A stretch of 64,000 bases of DNA from an uncultured Veillonellaceae bacterium (GTDB lineage: Bacteria > Bacillota > Negativicutes > Selenomonadales > Selenomonadaceae), in contig CADCIX010000004.1 of NCBI GenBank assembly GCA_902801565.1, positions 1 through 64,000 of the forward strand, in the 5' to 3' direction. How positions within the stretch are numbered: position 1 is the first letter of the stretch; each line of letters begins with the position of its first letter. Positions 13,316-53,079 of the stretch are shown one piece after another. The notes under the pieces were generated by a model. The model was not told the origin of the DNA, made no database searches, and worked only from the letters and a program-made list of their open reading frames with translations. The translations under genes were made by a program, and so were the position numbers.

Positions 13316-13344
13316 TTGACAGGCTTTTCGGCTTTCTGTTATAA
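13316..13344 (+). promoter_or_regulatory. Predicted promoter reading toward the DUF234 ATPase
   Basis: TTGACA (13316-13321), 17-base spacer, TTATAA (13339-13344). It would transcribe the folded element at 13344-13432 and then the ATPase gene. Confidence 0.45.
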
Positions 13345-13432
13345 CGAGGCAAGAGATGTCCCCCAACCTCTGTAGGTGGGGGGATGGATGCAAATAACAG
13401 GCGGCGAGCCAATATCTTCCGCCTCGTTGAAA
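13344..13432 (+). other. Folded element 1 (nested hairpins, unknown identity)
   Basis: An outer stem pairs ACGAGGC plus AAGA near 13344-13356 with TCTT and GCCTCGT ending at 13432. Inside is a C/G-rich hairpin, CCCCC-ACCT-ctgt-AGGT-GGGG, at about 13360-13383. A related C/G hairpin and the tail CAATAAGT recur at 16107-16170 (element 2). The shape recalls subterminal hairpins of IS200/IS605-type elements or a structured RNA, but no transposase is present, so identity is open. Confidence 0.35.
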
Positions 13433-13475
13433 CGTCAATAAGTTAGTGAATTGAAAGTTTGCAAAGGAGCCCATC

Positions 13476-14885
13476 ATGTTCTACTGCAGAGAGGAAGAAT
13501 TGAAAAAACTGAAGAAAAGGTATGACAATGGTGCCTTCGAATGCATCATCATCTATGGAAGGAGACGGGTCGGAAAGACTGCCCTGATAAATGAGTTCTG
13601 CAAGGATAAGCCCACGGTATATTTCTCAGCTCTTAAGGCGACGGCAAGCAAAAACCTATCTGCTCTCTCCAAGGCAATCCACCTATTCAAAGAACCGGAT
13701 GCCCTAAGTTTCCCCCAGTACCAAACCTTTGATGATGCGCTAAGAGAAATCAGCAGGCTGGCCCAGGATGACCGTCTGGTCTTTGTCATTGATGAATATC
13801 CATATTTAGCAAAGGCAGAAGATGCAATCTCCTCTTTGCTGCAGCACATCATTGACCACACCTGGACAAAGACAAAGCTGTATTTGATTCTGTGCGGCTC
13901 ATCCATGAGCTTTATGGAAAAGCAGGTATTGGGGGACGAAAGTCCCTTGTACGGACGCAGGACAGGGCAATTCAAGCTGGAATCACTCACTTACAGAGAA
14001 ACTTCCATATTCTGCCCCCATCTGACCCCGGAACAAAATGCGATTGTTTATGGCATAACCGGCGGTATCCCCCATTACATAAGGAAATTGAATGTCAAAG
14101 ATGATGTAGATGAGGCTCTTAAGGAAAATCTCTTCGACAGATCCAGCTACTTATTCGAGGAGCCGGAAAACCTTTTGAAACAGGAACTTAGGGAACCATC
14201 ACAATACAGCGATATCCTGTCTGCCATTGCCGAAGGGTCCTCCAAAATGGCAGAAATAGCCTCCCAGTGCAAGATAGACACTGCGACCTGCTCTAAATAC
14301 ATCAAAACACTCAGGGAACTGGGAATCGTGAAACGAGAGCGCCCCCTGGCCAATGCAAATTCGAAGCAAACCATCTATTCCATCGATGATAGTTTTTTTA
14401 GATTTTGGTATCGTTTTGTGCCGGACAACACTGCATTGATTGTATCCGGCAGGATACAGCGGGTGTATGACAAGGTGATCAAGCCATATATCCCTGATTT
14501 CATGGGCTTCGTTTTTGAACGCATGTGCCATGATTATTTGTTGTACTATGCTGACAACCTGCCCTATGAAATCCTGTCCTTGGGCAGATGGTGGGGAAAT
14601 CATCCGGCAGAGAAAAAGGAAATAGAGATTGATATCGTGGGAGAAATTCTCGAGGATTCCGGCGAGAAGTCCTATCTCATAGGCTCCTGCAAATACAGAA
14701 ACACGAAGATTGGCCGTGACGAATTGGAGCTGATGCGCAATTACGGAGCAGTTTTTTCCAGAGGGAAAAACTGCAGGTACGTAATTTTCTCCAAGTCCGG
14801 ATTCACCCGGGAACTCAAGGAATGCAGCGATGCAGGTGCAGTTATGCTGGTAACGTTAAACAAGATGATGGGCAGGGATGGTTAA
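13476..14885 (+). CDS. Archaeal-type ATPase with DUF234-like nuclease-fold C-terminus
   Basis: 469 residues, start MFYCREEELKKL at an ATG with AAAGGAG upstream. Walker A is GRRRVGKTALINEF (about 28-41), Walker B is VFVIDEYPYL (about 106), and ILCGSSMSFMEKQV supplies a sensor-like segment. A winged-helix region follows (MAEIASQCKIDTATCSKYI). The C-terminal part has EIEIDIVGEI and YLIGSCKYRN, compatible with the PD-(D/E)xK fold of DUF234. Proteins of this class are common accessory or defence-like genes of unknown role. It converges on the Fic gene with overlapping stop codons (TTAA). Patchy occurrence and nearby repeats suggest transfer. Confidence 0.8.
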   Translation: MFYCREEELKKLKKRYDNGAFECIIIYGRRRVGKTALINEFCKDKPTVYFSALKATASKNLSALSKAIHLFKEPDALSFPQYQTFDDALREISRLAQDDRLVFVIDEYPYLAKAEDAISSLLQHIIDHTWTKTKLYLILCGSSMSFMEKQVLGDESPLYGRRTGQFKLESLTYRETSIFCPHLTPEQNAIVYGITGGIPHYIRKLNVKDDVDEALKENLFDRSSYLFEEPENLLKQELREPSQYSDILSAIAEGSSKMAEIASQCKIDTATCSKYIKTLRELGIVKRERPLANANSKQTIYSIDDSFFRFWYRFVPDNTALIVSGRIQRVYDKVIKPYIPDFMGFVFERMCHDYLLYYADNLPYEILSLGRWWGNHPAEKKEIEIDIVGEILEDSGEKSYLIGSCKYRNTKIGRDELELMRNYGAVFSRGKNCRYVIFSKSGFTRELKECSDAGAVMLVTLNKMMGRDG

Positions 14886-15640
14886 GCAGTTCCAACAAAT
14901 TTTTCAACACGTTTCCCCCAAGTCTTTTCTAGTTCTTTTTTCATAAAGTTTACCATCTTAGCAATGGATTGATTTTTGTCCCAATCTTGCAGTGCATCGT
15001 AGTATTCATTTTTATCTTCATTGAAAATTACCATTGGTGGATGATTATGGGAAACCAACAGATAATTGATCAACAATCTGCCAGTACGTCCATTCCCATC
15101 AGAAAATGGATGGATATTTTCCATCTTACAATGGAAAAAGGCAACTACCTTGAGTATATTGGCTGAATTCAACTCATTAGAAGCTATATCTTCAACAAGT
15201 TCCCTCATTTCCTCAGCAGTCTCCTCAGCCGAGGCCCCCACTTCATCCTGCCCTACGATATAATCATGCTTTTTATACTCACCAGGACGTTCTCCAATCG
15301 TATAACGTCTTCTATCATAGGTGTTTTTCGTTAGCTCATATTGAAATTCTTTTATCAGCTCTTCACTAAGCGGGCTTCTTTTATCAAAATGGTCAAGCAT
15401 CAAGTAAATTGCATCCTTGGCGTTTCTGATTTCAAATAATGTCCTTAAGTCCCCTGTGTAAGATGAAACACTATCATTCTCAAAAATTTCCCTGGTATCA
15501 TTAAATGTAATGTTAGGATTCTCAATTTTTCCGGAATGATAAGCAAAGTTTATAATCTGCCCGTTCAAAACAGCTTCCAAATCTGCTGCTGTTCTTACCT
15601 TCAATGATTTCCAATATGTCAGATAATCCTTGTATTCCAC
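14882..15640 (-). CDS. Fic family protein (AMP transferase-like)
   Basis: 252 residues. The Fic active-site loop HPFSDGNGRTGR (about residue 180) matches HPFx(D/E)GNGRxxR completely, so transfer of AMP (or another phosphate-containing group) onto a target hydroxyl is expected. A likely inhibitory motif, SGKIEN, fits (S/T)xxxE(G/N) near residue 36, ahead of the Fic fold, as in class II self-inhibited Fic proteins. It is an unusually AT-rich gene for this window, with codon use unlike its neighbours, suggesting acquisition. It has no separate antitoxin gene. Its stop overlaps that of the convergent ATPase. Confidence 0.9.
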   Translation of the reverse strand: MEYKDYLTYWKSLKVRTAADLEAVLNGQIINFAYHSGKIENPNITFNDTREIFENDSVSSYTGDLRTLFEIRNAKDAIYLMLDHFDKRSPLSEELIKEFQYELTKNTYDRRRYTIGERPGEYKKHDYIVGQDEVGASAEETAEEMRELVEDIASNELNSANILKVVAFFHCKMENIHPFSDGNGRTGRLLINYLLVSHNHPPMVIFNEDKNEYYDALQDWDKNQSIAKMVNFMKKELEKTWGKRVEKFVGTA

Positions 15641-15775
15641 AACATACTTCCTCCTTTCGTAAGGAACCGGAAGACAATAGCATTAGGAAGATATTTTGGC
15701 GTGTTTCAAAACCGCCTAAATTCGCTTGACACTCCAGTTGCCTAAAAGTTTTCTTAACTGCTGTTCAAATAATGT

Positions 15776-15862
15776 CTTAGTGTCCCGCCTCGTTCATATC
15801 CATAATAATTGCCCGATATGCAGCCATCTGCGTTGTCGTTCGCTTGACGTAGCTCTGCTACG
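15776..15862 (+). mobile_element. MITE left arm (copy A, incomplete)
   Basis: The left ~85 bases match the complete MITE at 18005-18209 closely (TAGTGTCCCGCCTCGTTCA, then CATATCC and AATAATTGCCCGATATGC). The right arm is missing and is replaced by unrelated sequence with hairpins, up to copy B. Confidence 0.6.
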
Positions 15863-15874
15863 CCTGCGCTCTCT

Positions 15875-15900
15875 GCCTTGCAGATGAAAATCTGCAAGGC
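15875..15900. repeat. Perfect 11-bp hairpin between MITE copies
   Basis: GCCTTGCAGAT, loop GAAA, ATCTGCAAGGC: a perfect 11-base stem with a GNRA-type tetraloop. No T tract follows. A second, weaker hairpin (GCAAGTT...AACTTGTTGC) lies at about 15909-15932. Confidence 0.5.
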
Positions 15901-15932
15901 GTGATACAGCAAGTTATTAAAAACTTGTTGCA

Positions 15933-16096
15933 CTAGTGTAAGCCCTCGTTCATCTTTATAACAATTGCCCGCTATGCAGTCATCTGCTTTGTCATCGTCG
16001 GTTGACGTAGCACCGCTACGTCGCCCTCCTCTTCCTAGCATCTGACCACATATCGAACAATTGATTATTCTAAATCTGAACGAGGTCTTACACTAG
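15933..16096. mobile_element. MITE, copy B (164 bp, IS630/mariner-like ends)
   Basis: It begins CTAGTGTAAGCCCTCGTTCA and ends with the inverted form TGAACGAGGTCTTACACTAG, one mismatch over 20. The ends sit in CTAG, the usual IS630-type target in which TA is duplicated. Internal sequence (CAATTGCCCGCTATGCAG, GACGTAGCACCGCTACG) parallels copies A and C. It carries no gene; a short reverse-strand reading frame across copies A and B is not a real gene. Confidence 0.7.
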
Positions 16097-16106
16097 TCGA
16101 CGTTTC

Positions 16107-16154
16107 AACAAGAAAAGTCCCCCCACCTATAGAGGCTGGGGAACTTCTCTTGTT
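16107..16154. other. Folded element 2 (long hairpin related to element 1)
   Basis: AACAAGA plus AAGT-CCCC pairs with GGGG-AACTT-TCTTGTT, enclosing an ACCT...AGG inner stem. The tail TATCAATAAGTGAA resembles CGTCAATAAGTTAGTGAA after element 1 (13433-13450). The two elements bracket the ATPase/Fic/MITE patch. Confidence 0.35.
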
Positions 16155-16175
16155 ATATCAATAAGTGAACATTTC

Positions 16176-16940
16176 TCACAAAAGTGCCCTTTGAATACGA
16201 AACAATTCCTCAAGCAGCCATTCGGAAAACACGGCTCCTTCGGGCTGCAATAGACAATTTCCCCCCACCATGCCCCCCAGGGATCTTGCCGCAAAGGCCC
16301 TGTCTGCAACCTCCAGCATGGGAAGATCCATGGTGCTGTCACCGGCGGCGCAGACATAGCAGCCCTGCCTTGTTTCTTTCAGCCGTGCCAGAGCTTTGCC
16401 CTTCCCCACCGCCGGAGGAAAGAAATAGATCTTCCTGCCCATATGCTCCACATCCAACTGCGTCTGTGTGCGAAATGCATTTGCATGGGCCGCAGCATCC
16501 ACACCCTCATCACAGTACAGGAACAGATAGCTGTCATCCACGATCCGGCAACGGATAAAATCCTTTACCAAGGACTGTCTCTCACAGTGCGCATTCATCT
16601 CGTCACGCCAGGCATCTATCAAAGGTTTCACCTGCCCTGCCCACGCATCATCAGGTGTGCCCCGGCGCAGCAGAACAGCCCCGTTGGTGGTGACAGCCAG
16701 TTCCGGCTCGCAGCCTTCCGGCCAGCTGATTCTCTTGTACTGCTCTATGGACCGTGTCGTGACCGGCACGAGTTCCACCAGCTGCACAGCCCGCCGCAGG
16801 AGGTCGATGGCCTTTCTGGTCAGGAAGCTCTGTTCCCTGCCCTGGTACAGCTCCACACATACATCCCCATCCTGCCTGCATCGATGGGAAACCAGCAGGG
16901 TGTTGTCAAGGTCACAGGCAAAAAGTATCTTCTTCTCCAT
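16176..16940 (-). CDS. HAD-superfamily phosphatase of the Ter biosynthetic module
   Basis: 254 residues. All HAD motifs are visible: FACDLDNTLL (nucleophile and general acid Asp), PVTTRS (motif II Thr), a Lys in GKGKAL and AAGDSTMDLPML (metal-binding Asp). The large cap is of the Cof-like type. It is the last gene of the leftward Ter cluster and its start overlaps the stop of the PRTase-PELOTA gene (TGATG). HAD phosphatases occur in Ter-linked operons with two PRTases and an aldolase, where they are proposed to dephosphorylate a nucleotide-like intermediate. The substrate is unknown. Confidence 0.82.
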   Translation of the reverse strand: MEKKILFACDLDNTLLVSHRCRQDGDVCVELYQGREQSFLTRKAIDLLRRAVQLVELVPVTTRSIEQYKRISWPEGCEPELAVTTNGAVLLRRGTPDDAWAGQVKPLIDAWRDEMNAHCERQSLVKDFIRCRIVDDSYLFLYCDEGVDAAAHANAFRTQTQLDVEHMGRKIYFFPPAVGKGKALARLKETRQGCYVCAAGDSTMDLPMLEVADRAFAARSLGGMVGGNCLLQPEGAVFSEWLLEELFRIQRALL

Positions 16941-17992
16941 CAGTTATCCGCCAGAGATTGTATCAATCCGCAAGCAAGATAGTTCTGCAGGGGATATTCC
17001 ACAACCTCCACTCCTTTCTCCCGGGCCAGTTCATAGAGATGCCCCAGCCGTTCTTCATCCTTGAGACTGTATACCAATACTTTCCAGGGCAGACGCCGCA
17101 GGAGCACCCTGGTGGCCTCGCCGATTCCCGGCTTTACGAGATTGATGTCCCCGATGCCAAAGGCCCTGGCAATCCGCAGGACCTCATCCATTCCGGTGCC
17201 TTGCCCGGAGCCTTCCTTTTCCCGGGCTTCCGCCGACCGGGGAAATTCCCGCTCCACTGCTCCGATGAACTGATAGGTCAGGTCCTGATTCATCAGTTCT
17301 TTATAAAAAGCTGCCCCATGGAAATCCTCGGGGCCTATGATGTCCTCCCGCAGGAACGTGCGGCTCAAAAGCCCGGATACCGTGGAGTTCAGGCAGGAAC
17401 TGGCAATCAGGAAGTCTTCATGGGTGCCGCACTTCTCTGCCACATGGGCAGGATCGGAGAGCACTGCCAGTCCGGGACTCACCAGAGGATAGTCCTGCAT
17501 GGCCTTGTCCAGTTCCCTCTGGATGGCCCCCTTGCCCGTCCAGCCATCCACAAACTGGATATTCTCCGGCTTATGGCGGGCAAGGATATAGTCCATGGCA
17601 TTCCTGTCGATCCCCAGGCCACGAATGATGGATATGGTATAGTGGGGCACTGTTGCCTGATATCTCTTCTGCAGGTAATGACGGATGAGGATGCCGATGG
17701 GTGTGCCTGCCCGTGCCAGGGACACCAGCACCGCATCTTTCCCCTTCTGCCCATAGATCTTCTCGCTGACGGATGCCGTAGCTTCCGCCGTGATCCTGGC
17801 ATAACGGCCCAAGGCATCATAATATGCCTTCAGGTATTTTTCCGTGGGCTCATACTCTATGGGCAGCATTTCCGAATAATGCCGCCCTCCCTGTATGAGC
17901 CTCTCCCGCTCCTTCGTGCCCATGGGCTTTACCTGGCCGGTGATGTCCTTGAGCAGTATGGTGACATCCTCCGGACGATATGTGCTAAACAT
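16940..17992 (-). CDS. PRTase-like protein with C-terminal PELOTA-like domain (StiP family)
   Basis: 350 residues from the ATG at 17992, which has GGGAGG seven bases upstream; a GTG two codons earlier is the alternative. The N-terminal two thirds fit the PRTase_1/StiP family: VLVSLARAGTPIGIL, HYTISIIRGLGIDRNAM and a PRPP-loop-like IQFVDGWTGKGAI. The C-terminal ~90 residues (INLVKPGIGEATRVLLRRLPW then VLVYSLKDEERLGHLYELA) fit the PELOTA RNA-binding domain described on such proteins. It probably acts with the PRTase-TRSP protein to build a ribosylated metabolite. The ribosome binding site directly abuts MITE copy C, so the insertion left this start intact. Confidence 0.75.
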   Translation of the reverse strand: MFSTYRPEDVTILLKDITGQVKPMGTKERERLIQGGRHYSEMLPIEYEPTEKYLKAYYDALGRYARITAEATASVSEKIYGQKGKDAVLVSLARAGTPIGILIRHYLQKRYQATVPHYTISIIRGLGIDRNAMDYILARHKPENIQFVDGWTGKGAIQRELDKAMQDYPLVSPGLAVLSDPAHVAEKCGTHEDFLIASSCLNSTVSGLLSRTFLREDIIGPEDFHGAAFYKELMNQDLTYQFIGAVEREFPRSAEAREKEGSGQGTGMDEVLRIARAFGIGDINLVKPGIGEATRVLLRRLPWKVLVYSLKDEERLGHLYELAREKGVEVVEYPLQNYLACGLIQSLADN

Positions 17993-18004
17993 CTTCACGC
18001 CTCC

Positions 18005-18209
18005 CTAGTGTCCCACCTCGTTCATATCCACAATAATTGCCCGATATGCAGCCATCTGCGTTGTCATCGGTCGGGGAATTCTTCGCCAATGGCTCAGAAC
18101 TCCCGTTGACATGCCACTGGCATGTCAACCAGTTGGCGTAGCCACCGCTACGCATCTGACTTCATCTCGAACAATTATTTTTATGTTTCTGAACGAGGTG
18201 GGACACTAG
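18005..18209. mobile_element. MITE, copy C (205 bp, perfect 20-bp inverted ends)
   Basis: The ends are CTAGTGTCCCACCTCGTTCA and its exact reverse complement. The terminal CTAG at both sides fits IS630/mariner-type insertion with TA duplication. There is no coding content. It lies between two genes of the Ter cluster, and its right end forms the last codons of the PRTase-TRSP gene. Internal palindromic pieces (GACATGCCACTGGCATGTC, GTAGCCACCGCTAC) would let the transcript fold. Confidence 0.85.
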
Positions 18210-19361
18210 GTAAAAAATCCTGCCACAGCCATTCTCCTTCAAGGCCCCGAGAAGCCCTTGCATGCGCTCCTCCTCCGGCAGGGGCGTATCCGACAGGATG
18301 ATGACCTGTTCATAGCTCCGCAGATTGTAGATGAAATTCCTGCGTGTACCGCTCCTGTCATACAGGCTGCCGATTTCCCATCCATTCCTTATGGGATAGC
18401 CTTCTGCCCTGCAAATGCTGATGGGGCTTCTGGTGGTGGCATGGAAAAAGACCTTTGCCCCTCTCTGTTCCAAGGCCCTGCCAAGAATGAGCCCCGGAAG
18501 CATGCATTCCTCCGTTCCCAGGACCAGTGTGTCTGCCTTGAGATCCAGAGGCAGCTGCGCCAGTATCTCATCTGCGGACTGTTCCCACTGGCGGAAATAT
18601 TCCCCTGCTGCCGTTCCCCGTCTGGGGTCATGCCCCATCTTCACCAGATGGCGCTCATAGGCGCAATCCTTGCCCCTTGGCGCAACTGCGGCTTCCTCTG
18701 CCTGGAATTTCTCCACAAGCATCGTATAGTCGGTCTGGGGAAGCCTGACCAGCCATTCGCTTTTTACTCCGGCAGCCTCCAAACGCTGCTCATTCTCCGG
18801 GGACAAGCGGTTCAGGATAGAAGCGGCCACCAGCCTTTTTCCTTCCAACGCCGGGAATTCCTCTTTCAGGCGGGCAATGATATTGCAGATCGTCTTTCCC
18901 GTTGAGATTTCGTCATCCACGAACACCACCGTGTCCGTACGTGCAAGCCATTCCTCCAGGTGTTCCGTCACAAGGCTCTGCTCCGGTGCATGGCTGTGCT
19001 CTTCCAGAAAGTCGATATGCGCCCCCAAATCAGGCAATTCCTCCCGGGTGGTCTGAAGGTATACGCACTCCTCACTGATGGCATTGGCCACCACCGCTCC
19101 TATGGCGGTGGCAGTCTCCGCAAAGCCGATGACCAGCCTGGCATCGCCATGCCTTGCCGCCACCTTGTCCCCAAGTGCCTGCATCATGGAAAGAGCCAAG
19201 GATGGGCTTACGGGCACATGTTTTCCCTGCAGGGGATTTACCAGTATATATTTGCGCTTCCTGTTGTTGTGCCGTTTGGCCACGCGCAGCAGATCTTCAG
19301 CCGTGAAGTCTGCTTGTTGCTCTATAGCTGTCCCGTAGCCTTGCCTCGTCCCTGATTCCAT
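18162..19361 (-). CDS. Phosphoribosyltransferase with TRSP domain
   Basis: 399 residues. The PRPP-binding loop TVVFVDDEISTGKTICNII (about residue 140) is a classic type I PRTase motif, and FAETATAIGAVVANAI supplies another phosphoribosyl-binding loop. The C-terminal half contains FHATTRSPISI, the motif naming the TRSP domain found after PRTase_2 in Ter-linked operons. The ATG at 19361 has GGGGGAT seven bases upstream, so the 65-base overlap with the aldolase gene looks real. Roughly the last 16 residues are encoded by MITE copy C, which also provides the stop; the native tail was replaced or the native stop displaced. Confidence 0.78.
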   Translation of the reverse strand: MESGTRQGYGTAIEQQADFTAEDLLRVAKRHNNRKRKYILVNPLQGKHVPVSPSLALSMMQALGDKVAARHGDARLVIGFAETATAIGAVVANAISEECVYLQTTREELPDLGAHIDFLEEHSHAPEQSLVTEHLEEWLARTDTVVFVDDEISTGKTICNIIARLKEEFPALEGKRLVAASILNRLSPENEQRLEAAGVKSEWLVRLPQTDYTMLVEKFQAEEAAVAPRGKDCAYERHLVKMGHDPRRGTAAGEYFRQWEQSADEILAQLPLDLKADTLVLGTEECMLPGLILGRALEQRGAKVFFHATTRSPISICRAEGYPIRNGWEIGSLYDRSGTRRNFIYNLRSYEQVIILSDTPLPEEERMQGLLGALKENGCGRIFYLVSHLVQKHKNNCSR

Positions 19362-20316
19362 AGATATCCCCCAAGATCTTTGTACGTTCTGCCCATCTGC
19401 GATGTGTCTTCACCTCATTCATGCGGCTGCCGTCTGCGCTCTTGACCACGCCCAGCTTCTCCACATCCCACAGCAGGACCTGTCTGGCATCCTCATAGTC
19501 CGTATGGCTGACCTTCAGGCTGTCATAGATGTGAGGCAGCTGGGAAGGATGTATCGCGGTCTTACCGATAAAGCCATTGATGCGGTCCAGCTTCAGCTCC
19601 TGCAAAAGCCCCTCCAGCCAGTCAAAGCCCTTCTTGTCGTCAAAGTATTCCCATACAGGTCCTGACACCACATAATCCCTTACGAACACATTCAGTATGT
19701 CCACCAGGATGTCGCGGATGACCCCCACGGAATAGATCGGCGTGTCCACCGGGCGGCGAAGGCCATACAGATTGCTGAAATCATTGCCGCCTACCCGCAC
19801 ATTCAGCACGAACTCCTTCATGCTGTCAAGGATTTCCTTGATTCCATGAAGCACAGGCACACGGGTCTCATTGTCCGCGATCATACCGCTTTCCAGGACA
19901 GGCATCACATACAGCGGTTCCTGCCGTCCCCTGTTGATCTCCCGAAGGACCTCCCTGTAGGCCTCCCCGTTGCTTATATCAAATTTCGGCAGGATATAGC
20001 CCGTGAGTACATTCTCCGCTTCGCCAAGGAAAACAGAGATATGCCGCATATGCTCCGGCGTGCGCACCCGCACAAACAAGAGCGGCAGCTGTTCCCGCCT
20101 CTCCTCGTATGCGGAACGCATCTCCTCCAGTATGCTGCCAAGGTTCTTCTCCGCATCTTCCAACGCCTCGTCCTGAATGGCATCCTCCAGGCAAAAAGCA
20201 ACAGACGTCAAGCCGGCAATTTTCCGTCCAAGAATCTTTTCTACCATATTCTCCTGAAAGGCAGGCATGTACAAAAGACCGCCTACCATGTATTGCAAAG
20301 TTCTCTTCTCAATCAT
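19297..20316 (-). CDS. HpcH/HpaI aldolase / citrate-lyase beta-like enzyme
   Basis: 339 residues. A CitE-like TIM-barrel: LLYMPAFQENMVEKIL at the start, AFCLEDAIQDE (acidic metal-site region), PLLFVRVRTPEHM (substrate Arg), YILPKFD, YVMPVLES and FIGKTAIHPSQLPHIY near the end, where KxAIHPxQ is typical. Family members cleave or form C-C bonds of acyl-CoA or oxo acids. In Ter clusters a CitE-like enzyme sits beside the PRTases and HAD enzyme and is thought to serve the same unknown pathway. The start at 20316 has GAGGG eight bases upstream. Confidence 0.85.
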   Translation of the reverse strand: MIEKRTLQYMVGGLLYMPAFQENMVEKILGRKIAGLTSVAFCLEDAIQDEALEDAEKNLGSILEEMRSAYEERREQLPLLFVRVRTPEHMRHISVFLGEAENVLTGYILPKFDISNGEAYREVLREINRGRQEPLYVMPVLESGMIADNETRVPVLHGIKEILDSMKEFVLNVRVGGNDFSNLYGLRRPVDTPIYSVGVIRDILVDILNVFVRDYVVSGPVWEYFDDKKGFDWLEGLLQELKLDRINGFIGKTAIHPSQLPHIYDSLKVSHTDYEDARQVLLWDVEKLGVVKSADGSRMNEVKTHRRWAERTKILGDIYGIRDEARLRDSYRATSRLHG

Positions 20317-20382
20317 TCTTTTCCCTCATTACATTCGTGTGAAAACAAGCAGGCGATGAAGTATTCACCGCCCGCAGTCAAG

Positions 20383-21072
20383 TTATTTGGATTTGGGAGG
20401 AGGTATCATGGACCGGATCCAGGCCTCAAAGCTGCTCGGATTCCTTGTCTGGATCAAGATAACTCCCGGGCCACGGAAACGGCACACAAGTCCCTCTCCG
20501 GAAGTAAGGCTTGAAAACCAGCCGCTGGAGGCTTTTTCTATCTTGTAGTGCATATAGTCAGGCCATGCCACCAGATGCCCATTGTCGATGATGAATTCTT
20601 CCCCGTCATCCAGATTGATGGGATGGATCACCCCATAGCTGCTGATGAACACAGTTCCCCTGCCTTTGATATTGAGCACGAACAGCCCTTCGCCGGAGAA
20701 CAGTCCTTGGGACAGGTTCTGCATTTTGGTATCCACCTGCACATCCTGTGTACCGGCAAGGAATCCATCCTTCTGCACCACCAGCCCATAAGAACCGTCC
20801 AGATCCACATCCATGATGCCGCCGGGATAGGGATGCCCCAGCAACACCGTCCCGTCACCACGATTTGCCGCAAGTTCCTGGAAGAAGAAGCTCTCCCCTG
20901 CCAGCACTTTGCGCATGAGTCCCTTGAGGATGCCTCCTTCCATTTTTCCTTCCACATCCACCGTAGCGGACATGGCCACCATGGCATCCGATTCTGCCTT
21001 CAGCCGCTCACCACGCTTCAGATGGCACTCTATGACCGGAAATGCCTCAGGATAAAGTATCTTGTAGTCCAT
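20383..21072 (-). CDS. AIM24 / TIGR00266 family protein
   Basis: 229 residues. A beta-rich protein with recurrent glycines: VEGKMEGGILKGLMRKVLAGESFFFQE is the family's recognisable centre, followed by YGVVVQKDGFLAG-like and GRGTVFISSYG segments. AIM24-like proteins share a fold with the trp RNA-binding attenuation protein; their bacterial role is unknown, but they often occur beside TerD genes. There is no signal peptide. It lies 12 bases after the TerD gene at 21085 and is likely cotranscribed. Confidence 0.8.
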   Translation of the reverse strand: MDYKILYPEAFPVIECHLKRGERLKAESDAMVAMSATVDVEGKMEGGILKGLMRKVLAGESFFFQELAANRGDGTVLLGHPYPGGIMDVDLDGSYGLVVQKDGFLAGTQDVQVDTKMQNLSQGLFSGEGLFVLNIKGRGTVFISSYGVIHPINLDDGEEFIIDNGHLVAWPDYMHYKIEKASSGWFSSLTSGEGLVCRFRGPGVILIQTRNPSSFEAWIRSMIPPPKSK

Positions 21073-53023: not shown

Positions 53024-53052
53024 ATTATAACGCATGGTTCAGATTTTGCCAA
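53024..53052 (-). promoter_or_regulatory. Predicted map promoter
   Basis: Reverse strand TTGGCA (53047-53052), 17-base spacer, TATAAT (53024-53029), about 50 bases before the start. Confidence 0.6.
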
Positions 53053-53060
53053 AGGCAAAA
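53044..53060. promoter_or_regulatory. Palindrome TTTTGCCAAAGGCAAAA (copy 2)
   Basis: Perfect seven-base arms around AAA, overlapping the map -35 box. The same core occurs at 33163-33178 before the MFS gene. Confidence 0.4.
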
Positions 53061-53079
53061 TATACTCTCCCCCCAAACC

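Follow-up and report, generated by a model that had tools for sequence, protein, structure and literature searches.

Two folded elements of a Selenomonadaceae contig are broken copies of a hairpin-forming repeat spread through rumen Selenomonas-type bacteria

What are the two related folded elements that bracket a DUF234 ATPase gene and a Fic gene on contig CADCIX010000004.1 of an uncultured Veillonellaceae bacterium? The window, that is the whole stretch of 64,000 nucleotides analysed here (positions 1 to 64,000), belongs to contig C4 of a 2.7-Mb genome in 69 contigs (G000, the own genome in what follows). An initial annotation had proposed that the elements might be the ends of a decayed IS200/IS605-type element or the boundary of a mobile island. 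Instead, they are broken copies of a hairpin-forming repeat that is spread through rumen Selenomonas-type bacteria. With confidence only a little above even, we further hold that they are independent, truncated left-half copies of a non-autonomous, palindrome-associated Selenomonadaceae repeat that is moved by a Y1 transposase in trans. The parts concerned are the following.

13339..13443, + strand: element 1, a left domain consisting of TTATAAC, hairpin 1, hairpin 2 and GTTGAAACGTCAATAAGT, without the right domain.
13359..13383, + strand: hairpin 1 of element 1, a C/G stem with apex CCTCTGTAGG (helices 1-2 of alignment A1), resembling the left-end hairpin of the family's IS605 elements.
13426..13442, + strand: linker motif GTTGAAACGTCAATAAG of element 1, which joins the left and right domains of the repeat (12 matches in the genome).
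16095..16157, - strand: element 2, a minimal left domain consisting of TATAAC, a single 17-bp hairpin and GTTGAAACGTC.

Are the two elements truly related? Folded as single-stranded DNA in the left-to-right (L→R) orientation, each is far more stable than its shuffled versions (z -5.06 in both cases; 0 of 200 shuffles as good), and in both a C/G hairpin whose apex is CCTCT..AGG stands between TATAAC on the 5' side and GTTGAAACGTC on the 3' side. To this extent the initial annotation, which had described two related folded elements with a shared hairpin, was right. Their orientation is opposite, element 1 lying on the + strand and element 2 on the - strand; they are inverted left halves of one repeat. 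Element 1 is matched by our model R1 at 87.4 bits (E 1.3e-14), and the family linker GTYGAAACGTCAATAAG within it has 12 matches in the genome at up to two mismatches, against none for the reversed-pattern control. Near-identical copies of element 1 occur on contig C13 of the own genome, at C13:14494 (97%) and C13:21541 (99%). Since the former is complete, comprising TTATAAC, the left hairpin domain, GTTGAAACGTCAAT, the right hairpin domain (ATTTTGCCGTTGGCAAAAT) and TTTGAACAATGCGTTATAA, the unit must be longer than element 1, which is its left part alone. The scores of element 2 are weak when taken alone (R1 19.9 bits, E 0.068; nhmmer E 0.021), so that it is the TATAAC/GTTGAAACGTC frame common to both elements, together with the hairpin, that places it in the family.

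Could the pair nevertheless have bounded a single IS605-type element, since decayed, or a mobile island, with the DUF234 and Fic genes as cargo? The close spacing, the position of TATAAC outermost on both sides and the 9-bp direct repeat TCAATAAGT adjoining both elements (13435-13443 and 16158-16166) speak for this, the 9-mer occurring only twice in the window against 0.30 expected, counting both strands. However, both elements are left domains, whereas the IS605-type elements found here have differing left and right ends; the repeat is widespread; the TCAATAAG of element 1 is family linker; and the sequence behind the second TCAATAAGT does not continue into the right domain. We consider this explanation very improbable. 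A single element with these two ends was rejected, both being left domains in inverted orientation without a right domain, as was a composite insertion marked by the 9-bp direct repeat, after whose second copy the right domain fails to resume. What had been taken for a tail common to both elements is thus two different things: at element 1 TCAATAAGT is part of the family's own linker, and at element 2 it lies outside the TATAAC end. No evidence for an island boundary was found, the repeat being dispersed across the whole bacterial family. Of the proposed IS200/IS605 ends, the IS605-type left-end hairpin survives (see below), not the pairing of the two elements as ends of one.

If element 1 is only half of the unit, what does the whole look like? 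The intact repeat is about 140 bp long and runs from TATAAC through the left hairpin domain, GTTGAAAC and the right hairpin domain to GTTATAA. TATAA stands at the left end of 113 of 126 full copies and at the right end of 121 of them, full-length counts here being restricted to profile hits that reach both ends, with repeated contexts removed. TTTGAACAATGCGTTAT, the motif of the right end, has 68 matches in the own genome at up to two mismatches (reversed control, 0). Alignment A1, of 41 distinct copies, yields 33 predicted base pairs with 96.5% of the cells paired, a value favoured by the derivation of the structure from A1 itself. Compensatory changes on both sides are seen in 16 of the 33 pairs; shuffles average 8.1, with 0 of 500 reaching 16, and slid structures give 2-8. 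Palindromes therefore lie near both termini, as covarying left and right hairpins. In element 1 the left domain also has an outer stem, AACGAGG/CCTCGTT, which is disrupted in the ACTCGG variants and for that reason was left out of the consensus structure.

The two strands are not equivalent. The consensus folds at -31.8 for the L→R strand and at -23.5 for its complement, and 32 of the 41 single copies likewise fold better as the L→R strand. Left and right domain variants occur in different combinations within one genome, truncated and shuffled copies are present, and head-to-tail copies in arrays have one TATAA in common between neighbours. An RNA-like folding strand and reassorting domains are what one might expect if a reverse transcriptase copied the repeat by way of RNA, in the manner of a short interspersed nuclear element. 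RVT_1, however, is not associated with the repeat (4 of 14 carriers tested, 3 of 14 non-carriers), and we find this route hardly credible.

Several variants were observed. At L254 (G022:C15, ~142150-142420) a tandem array is built of ~73-bp units, in each of which a left hairpin of minimal form (CTCGGCGTGCGCCTCG) is combined with a right domain, TATAA being shared between neighbours. L249-L253 (G022), L263 (G023) and several G000 copies (L021, L022, L025) carry a cassette of ~24-30 bp, of the GCGACGCGAAGCTAGT type, either within the linker or within loops of the hairpins. An element with terminal inverted repeats (TIRs; CAATGTCATTWAGTTAAG...) interrupts hairpin 1 at its apex in eight loci, with a ~10-bp duplication, CCTCTATAGG or CTTCTATAAG; both of its ends are seen in L155 and L195, one end in L126, L127, L131, L161, L164 and L206, and its ends were also located elsewhere (23 distinct ends).

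How far has the repeat spread? With a complete copy as query, matches were obtained in 13 of 41 genomes at E ≤ 0.001. The R1 search at E ≤ 1e-4 found the repeat in 68 of 380 Negativicutes genomes, 66 of them in the window's own family, the other two being G040 and G095; apart from these two outliers its carriers represent 15 genera, all of one bacterial family. The maximum for one genome is 43 matches (G273). A pattern scan of named genome records returned at least 118 stretches; among the matches listed are Selenomonas, S. ruminantium, S. ruminis, Schwartzia succinivorans, uncultured Selenomonadaceae/Veillonellaceae and one 'Bacillota bacterium'. No match was found in viral contigs or phage records; among plasmids there was one record, the megaplasmid pSRC1 of S. 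ruminantium TAM6421. Nothing relevant to repeats in Selenomonas was found in the open-access literature. Further copies, whose lack the initial annotation would have counted against its own proposal, are therefore abundant; copies with identical scores stand at unrelated places, amid varied neighbours.

Is the repeat mobile? To answer this, we compared the joined flanks of 150 full copies with 408 loci. A junction-spanning site was found in 14 rows; six of these, below 91% identity, were excluded, and L181 and L211 were merged as one site. At the remaining seven independent repeat-free sites (identity at least 91%) the two flanks are joined directly across a core of four bases, one of the seven differing by one base in an A run. 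The cores are ATAA (four), ATGA (two) and GTAA (one), with no extra duplication. We conclude that the repeat inserts precisely at TATAA-like pentamers. A classical DDE-type miniature inverted-repeat transposable element (MITE), with TIRs of 15-30 bp and a target duplication, was rejected: only TATAAC/GTTATA is inverted, and there is no variable duplication.

In which orientation do the copies lie? Among the 126 copies of the skew test, the L→R strand is the G-rich, lagging-template strand in 92. On C8 of G273, 22 of 24 copies agree with the skew (p 3.6e-5); there the GC skew switches between 632 and 690 kb and the orientation of the elements between 491 and 873 kb. IS608 and ISDra2 use the lagging-strand template, the same direction as that of the repeat, according to PMC6006769. 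The direction of flanking genes is correlated with this orientation and only partly separable from it, agreement being 22/31 between convergent genes, 14/19 between divergent genes and 4/18 where both genes run opposite to the element.

Might the repeat instead be a functional RNA, an untranslated-region (UTR) or terminator element under selection rather than a mobile repeat? The covariation is that of one strand, many copies lie near the stop codons of predicted open reading frames (median 29 bp), and most of the older copies run in the direction of the G-rich strand. On the other hand, the insertion polymorphism, the truncated and shuffled copies and the varied neighbours speak against it, and there is no match in Rfam: all scores fall below the gathering score, and element 2 attains only a chance-level mir-2070 (E 0.1). 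We judge a functional RNA improbable. Readings as an integron attC-like or a retron-like sequence were considered and set aside.

From where, then, might the means of movement come? The hairpin block AGAAGTCCNCCACCTCTNAGGTGGGGG, preceded by TTTAAC, stands at the left ends of TnpA/TnpB elements in G022, G012 and G007. These IS605 elements (tnpA and tnpB; L222, L220, L221 and L244) have the same left hairpin block as the repeat, theirs following TTTAAC and that of the repeat TATAAC. Five matches of the block fall in 4 of 36 TnpA/TnpB loci (106 kb) and one in 1.75 Mb of background, and four loci have a related apex (CTTCTATAAG/CCTCTATAGG) in the hairpin of their right end (4 in 106 kb, 3 in 1.75 Mb); the patterns having been written after the first matches were seen, the enrichment is descriptive. 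Judged by this likeness of sequence, the kinship of the repeat's left end with IS200/IS605 is supported. Of the two ends sought beside TnpA/TnpB genes, the left-end hairpin was found in 4 of 36 loci, and the right end was not seen among them.

If so, Y1 (HUH) TnpA supplied in trans would recognise the hairpins on the better-folding L→R strand, excise the repeat as single-stranded DNA and insert it into the lagging-strand template, probably leaving no further duplication; copies would later decay by loss of one domain. Several models fit the ATAA that stands on the left side of 147 and on the right side of 144 of the 150 full copies; the 5' oligonucleotide may be one retained from the target. 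Of the mechanisms of mobilisation considered, Y1 TnpA acting in trans has the best support and is put forward as a proposal.

Several observations weigh against it. Three of the seven empty sites carry ATGA or GTAA, whereas under a strict target-retained model the letters of the target should persist in the left flank, which reads ATAA in 147 of 150 repeats (Fisher p 0.001); divergence alone is expected to give 1.27 such mismatches (P of three or more, 0.14). Orientation shows no bias on C2 and C7 of G273 (10 of 19 agree), and in the age comparison (109 copies in loci of at least 7 kb, of which the 99 with |skew| > 0.03 were counted) the bias is strong in diverged copies (34/38) and weaker in near-identical ones (32/49; Fisher p 0.011), so that part of it may reflect selection and not insertion polarity. 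The whole-repeat profile has no match in the 36 TnpA/TnpB loci at E ≤ 10. Among the loci examined no transposase-bearing element has the repeat's right end; right ends differ, that of the IS605 elements (CTCCCGCCTCTATAGGCGGG..TACGTTCAC; L219, L220, L222) being unlike the right domain of the repeat. Nor does the distribution of the transposase follow that of the repeat. Five of 13 carriers have no Y1_Tnp (PF01797) match, namely G000 (99.8% complete), G001 (88%), G002 (79%), G008 (100%) and G023 (99%), a missing match being no proof of absence because copies of insertion sequences can drop out of draft assemblies. G023, among these, has several copies with identical scores. Of the 13 carriers 8 have Y1, as do 6 of 13 non-carriers from the same family, which is no association (Fisher p 0.70); in this test G040, of another family, stands among the carriers, other genomes from outside the family were left out, and G020 was counted as a non-carrier despite weak R1 matches. 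The own genome has six TnpB genes (L029-L034), on six contigs other than that of the window, and no Y1 TnpA match.

Could a different enzyme be responsible? A structured repeat like bcr1 might be moved by a non-Y1 recombinase or transposase, the excised form, with one TTATAAC junction, recombining at TATAA-like cores and leaving TATAA of the element's own type on both sides. The five carriers without a Y1 match would be accounted for, as would the near-constancy of ATAA at both ends beside cores of ATGA and GTAA at three of seven empty sites, and the single TATAA shared by head-to-tail copies. Yet the left hairpin is IS605-like, the orientation is that of the lagging template, and the core difference is not beyond what divergence alone would give (P 0.14, above). 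This is a possible, if unlikely, explanation. In a bolder form, which we offer as a conjecture and think rather doubtful, a self-sustaining family of repeats with two hairpins and no gene would owe its amplification in Selenomonadaceae to an enzyme not yet described, distinct from both Y1 TnpA and reverse transcriptases; exchange at TATAA-like cores would replace the core of the target by that of the repeat, and left and right domains would reassort freely. The conflict is between an IS605-like left end with lagging-template orientation and recent-looking copies in genomes in which no Y1 transposase is detectable.

Which known systems does the repeat resemble? The closest in kind to a repeat moved by Y1 TnpA in trans are the palindrome-associated transposable elements (PATEs) of Haloquadratum, non-autonomous relatives of IS605-type elements. 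As described in PMC3119063, these too are short, gene-less and present in many copies, have palindromes near both termini and a conserved terminal oligonucleotide, and have insertions where intact IS200 transposases are nearly absent; they make no target duplication, and none was seen at the seven repeat-free sites here. Their palindromes are attacked by small TIR elements (SMR-A), as is the apex of hairpin 1 here. They differ in sequence and host, and the repeat is without a transposase element matched to its right end. bcr1 of the Bacillus cereus group, as described in PMC6542083 and PMC3446304, is 100-400 bp long, MITE-like and mobile, with tens of copies, often in UTRs. By the features that define bcr1-like repeats (a terminal AT pentanucleotide, mobility, structure, no transposase inside) the present repeat belongs with them; the pentanucleotide is TTTAT there and TATAA here, the likeness being one in kind, and bcr1 is described as restricted to one species group, unlike the repeat. 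Repetitive extragenic palindromes (REPs), their mosaic arrangements (BIMEs) and the associated transposase RAYT (TnpA-REP) share with it dispersed intergenic hairpins, dimers, arrays and likely HUH movers. Identity with REPs was rejected, since these are palindromes of 20-40 bp with GTAG or CGTC tags according to PMC3733652 and PMC6006769, and the repeat is ~140 bp long with TATAA ends. The repeat provides rumen Selenomonadaceae with a well-defined family of mobile repeats, for which there are a covariance model and element-free sites.

What of the genes between the two elements? The remaining features of the window are these.

13476..14885, + strand: DUF234/ATPase_2 gene (Pfam E 1.6e-23 and 5.1e-17), between the elements.
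14882..15640, - strand: Fic/DOC gene (Pfam E 5e-18), between the elements.
15932..16097, no strand assigned: separate MITE-like repeat that adjoins element 2 and has ACTAGTGTAAGNCCTCGTTCA (~21 bp) as its terminal inverted repeat, as read from the sequence.
53025..53065, - strand: right-domain remnant of the repeat, ATTTTGCC..GGCAAAAT, TCTGAACCATGCGTTATAA.

The ATPase gene (ATPase_2 and DUF234), the Fic gene and the MITE-like repeats that had been placed between the elements were all confirmed. They look incidental, and the repeat family accounts for the apparent bracketing without an island. In G001, of the same genus, phosphoribosyltransferase-HAD genes are followed by TerD, with no DUF234 or Fic gene in that stretch; in G002 the HAD gene stands at a contig end; and the phosphoribosyltransferase-HAD-TerD genes (16176-21072 in the window) are arranged differently in the nearest genome (L341). 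A degenerate relative of the MITE-like repeat lies at ~15780-15930. At L100 a DUF234 homologue lies 22 bp from a copy of the repeat, which we take as a coincidence.

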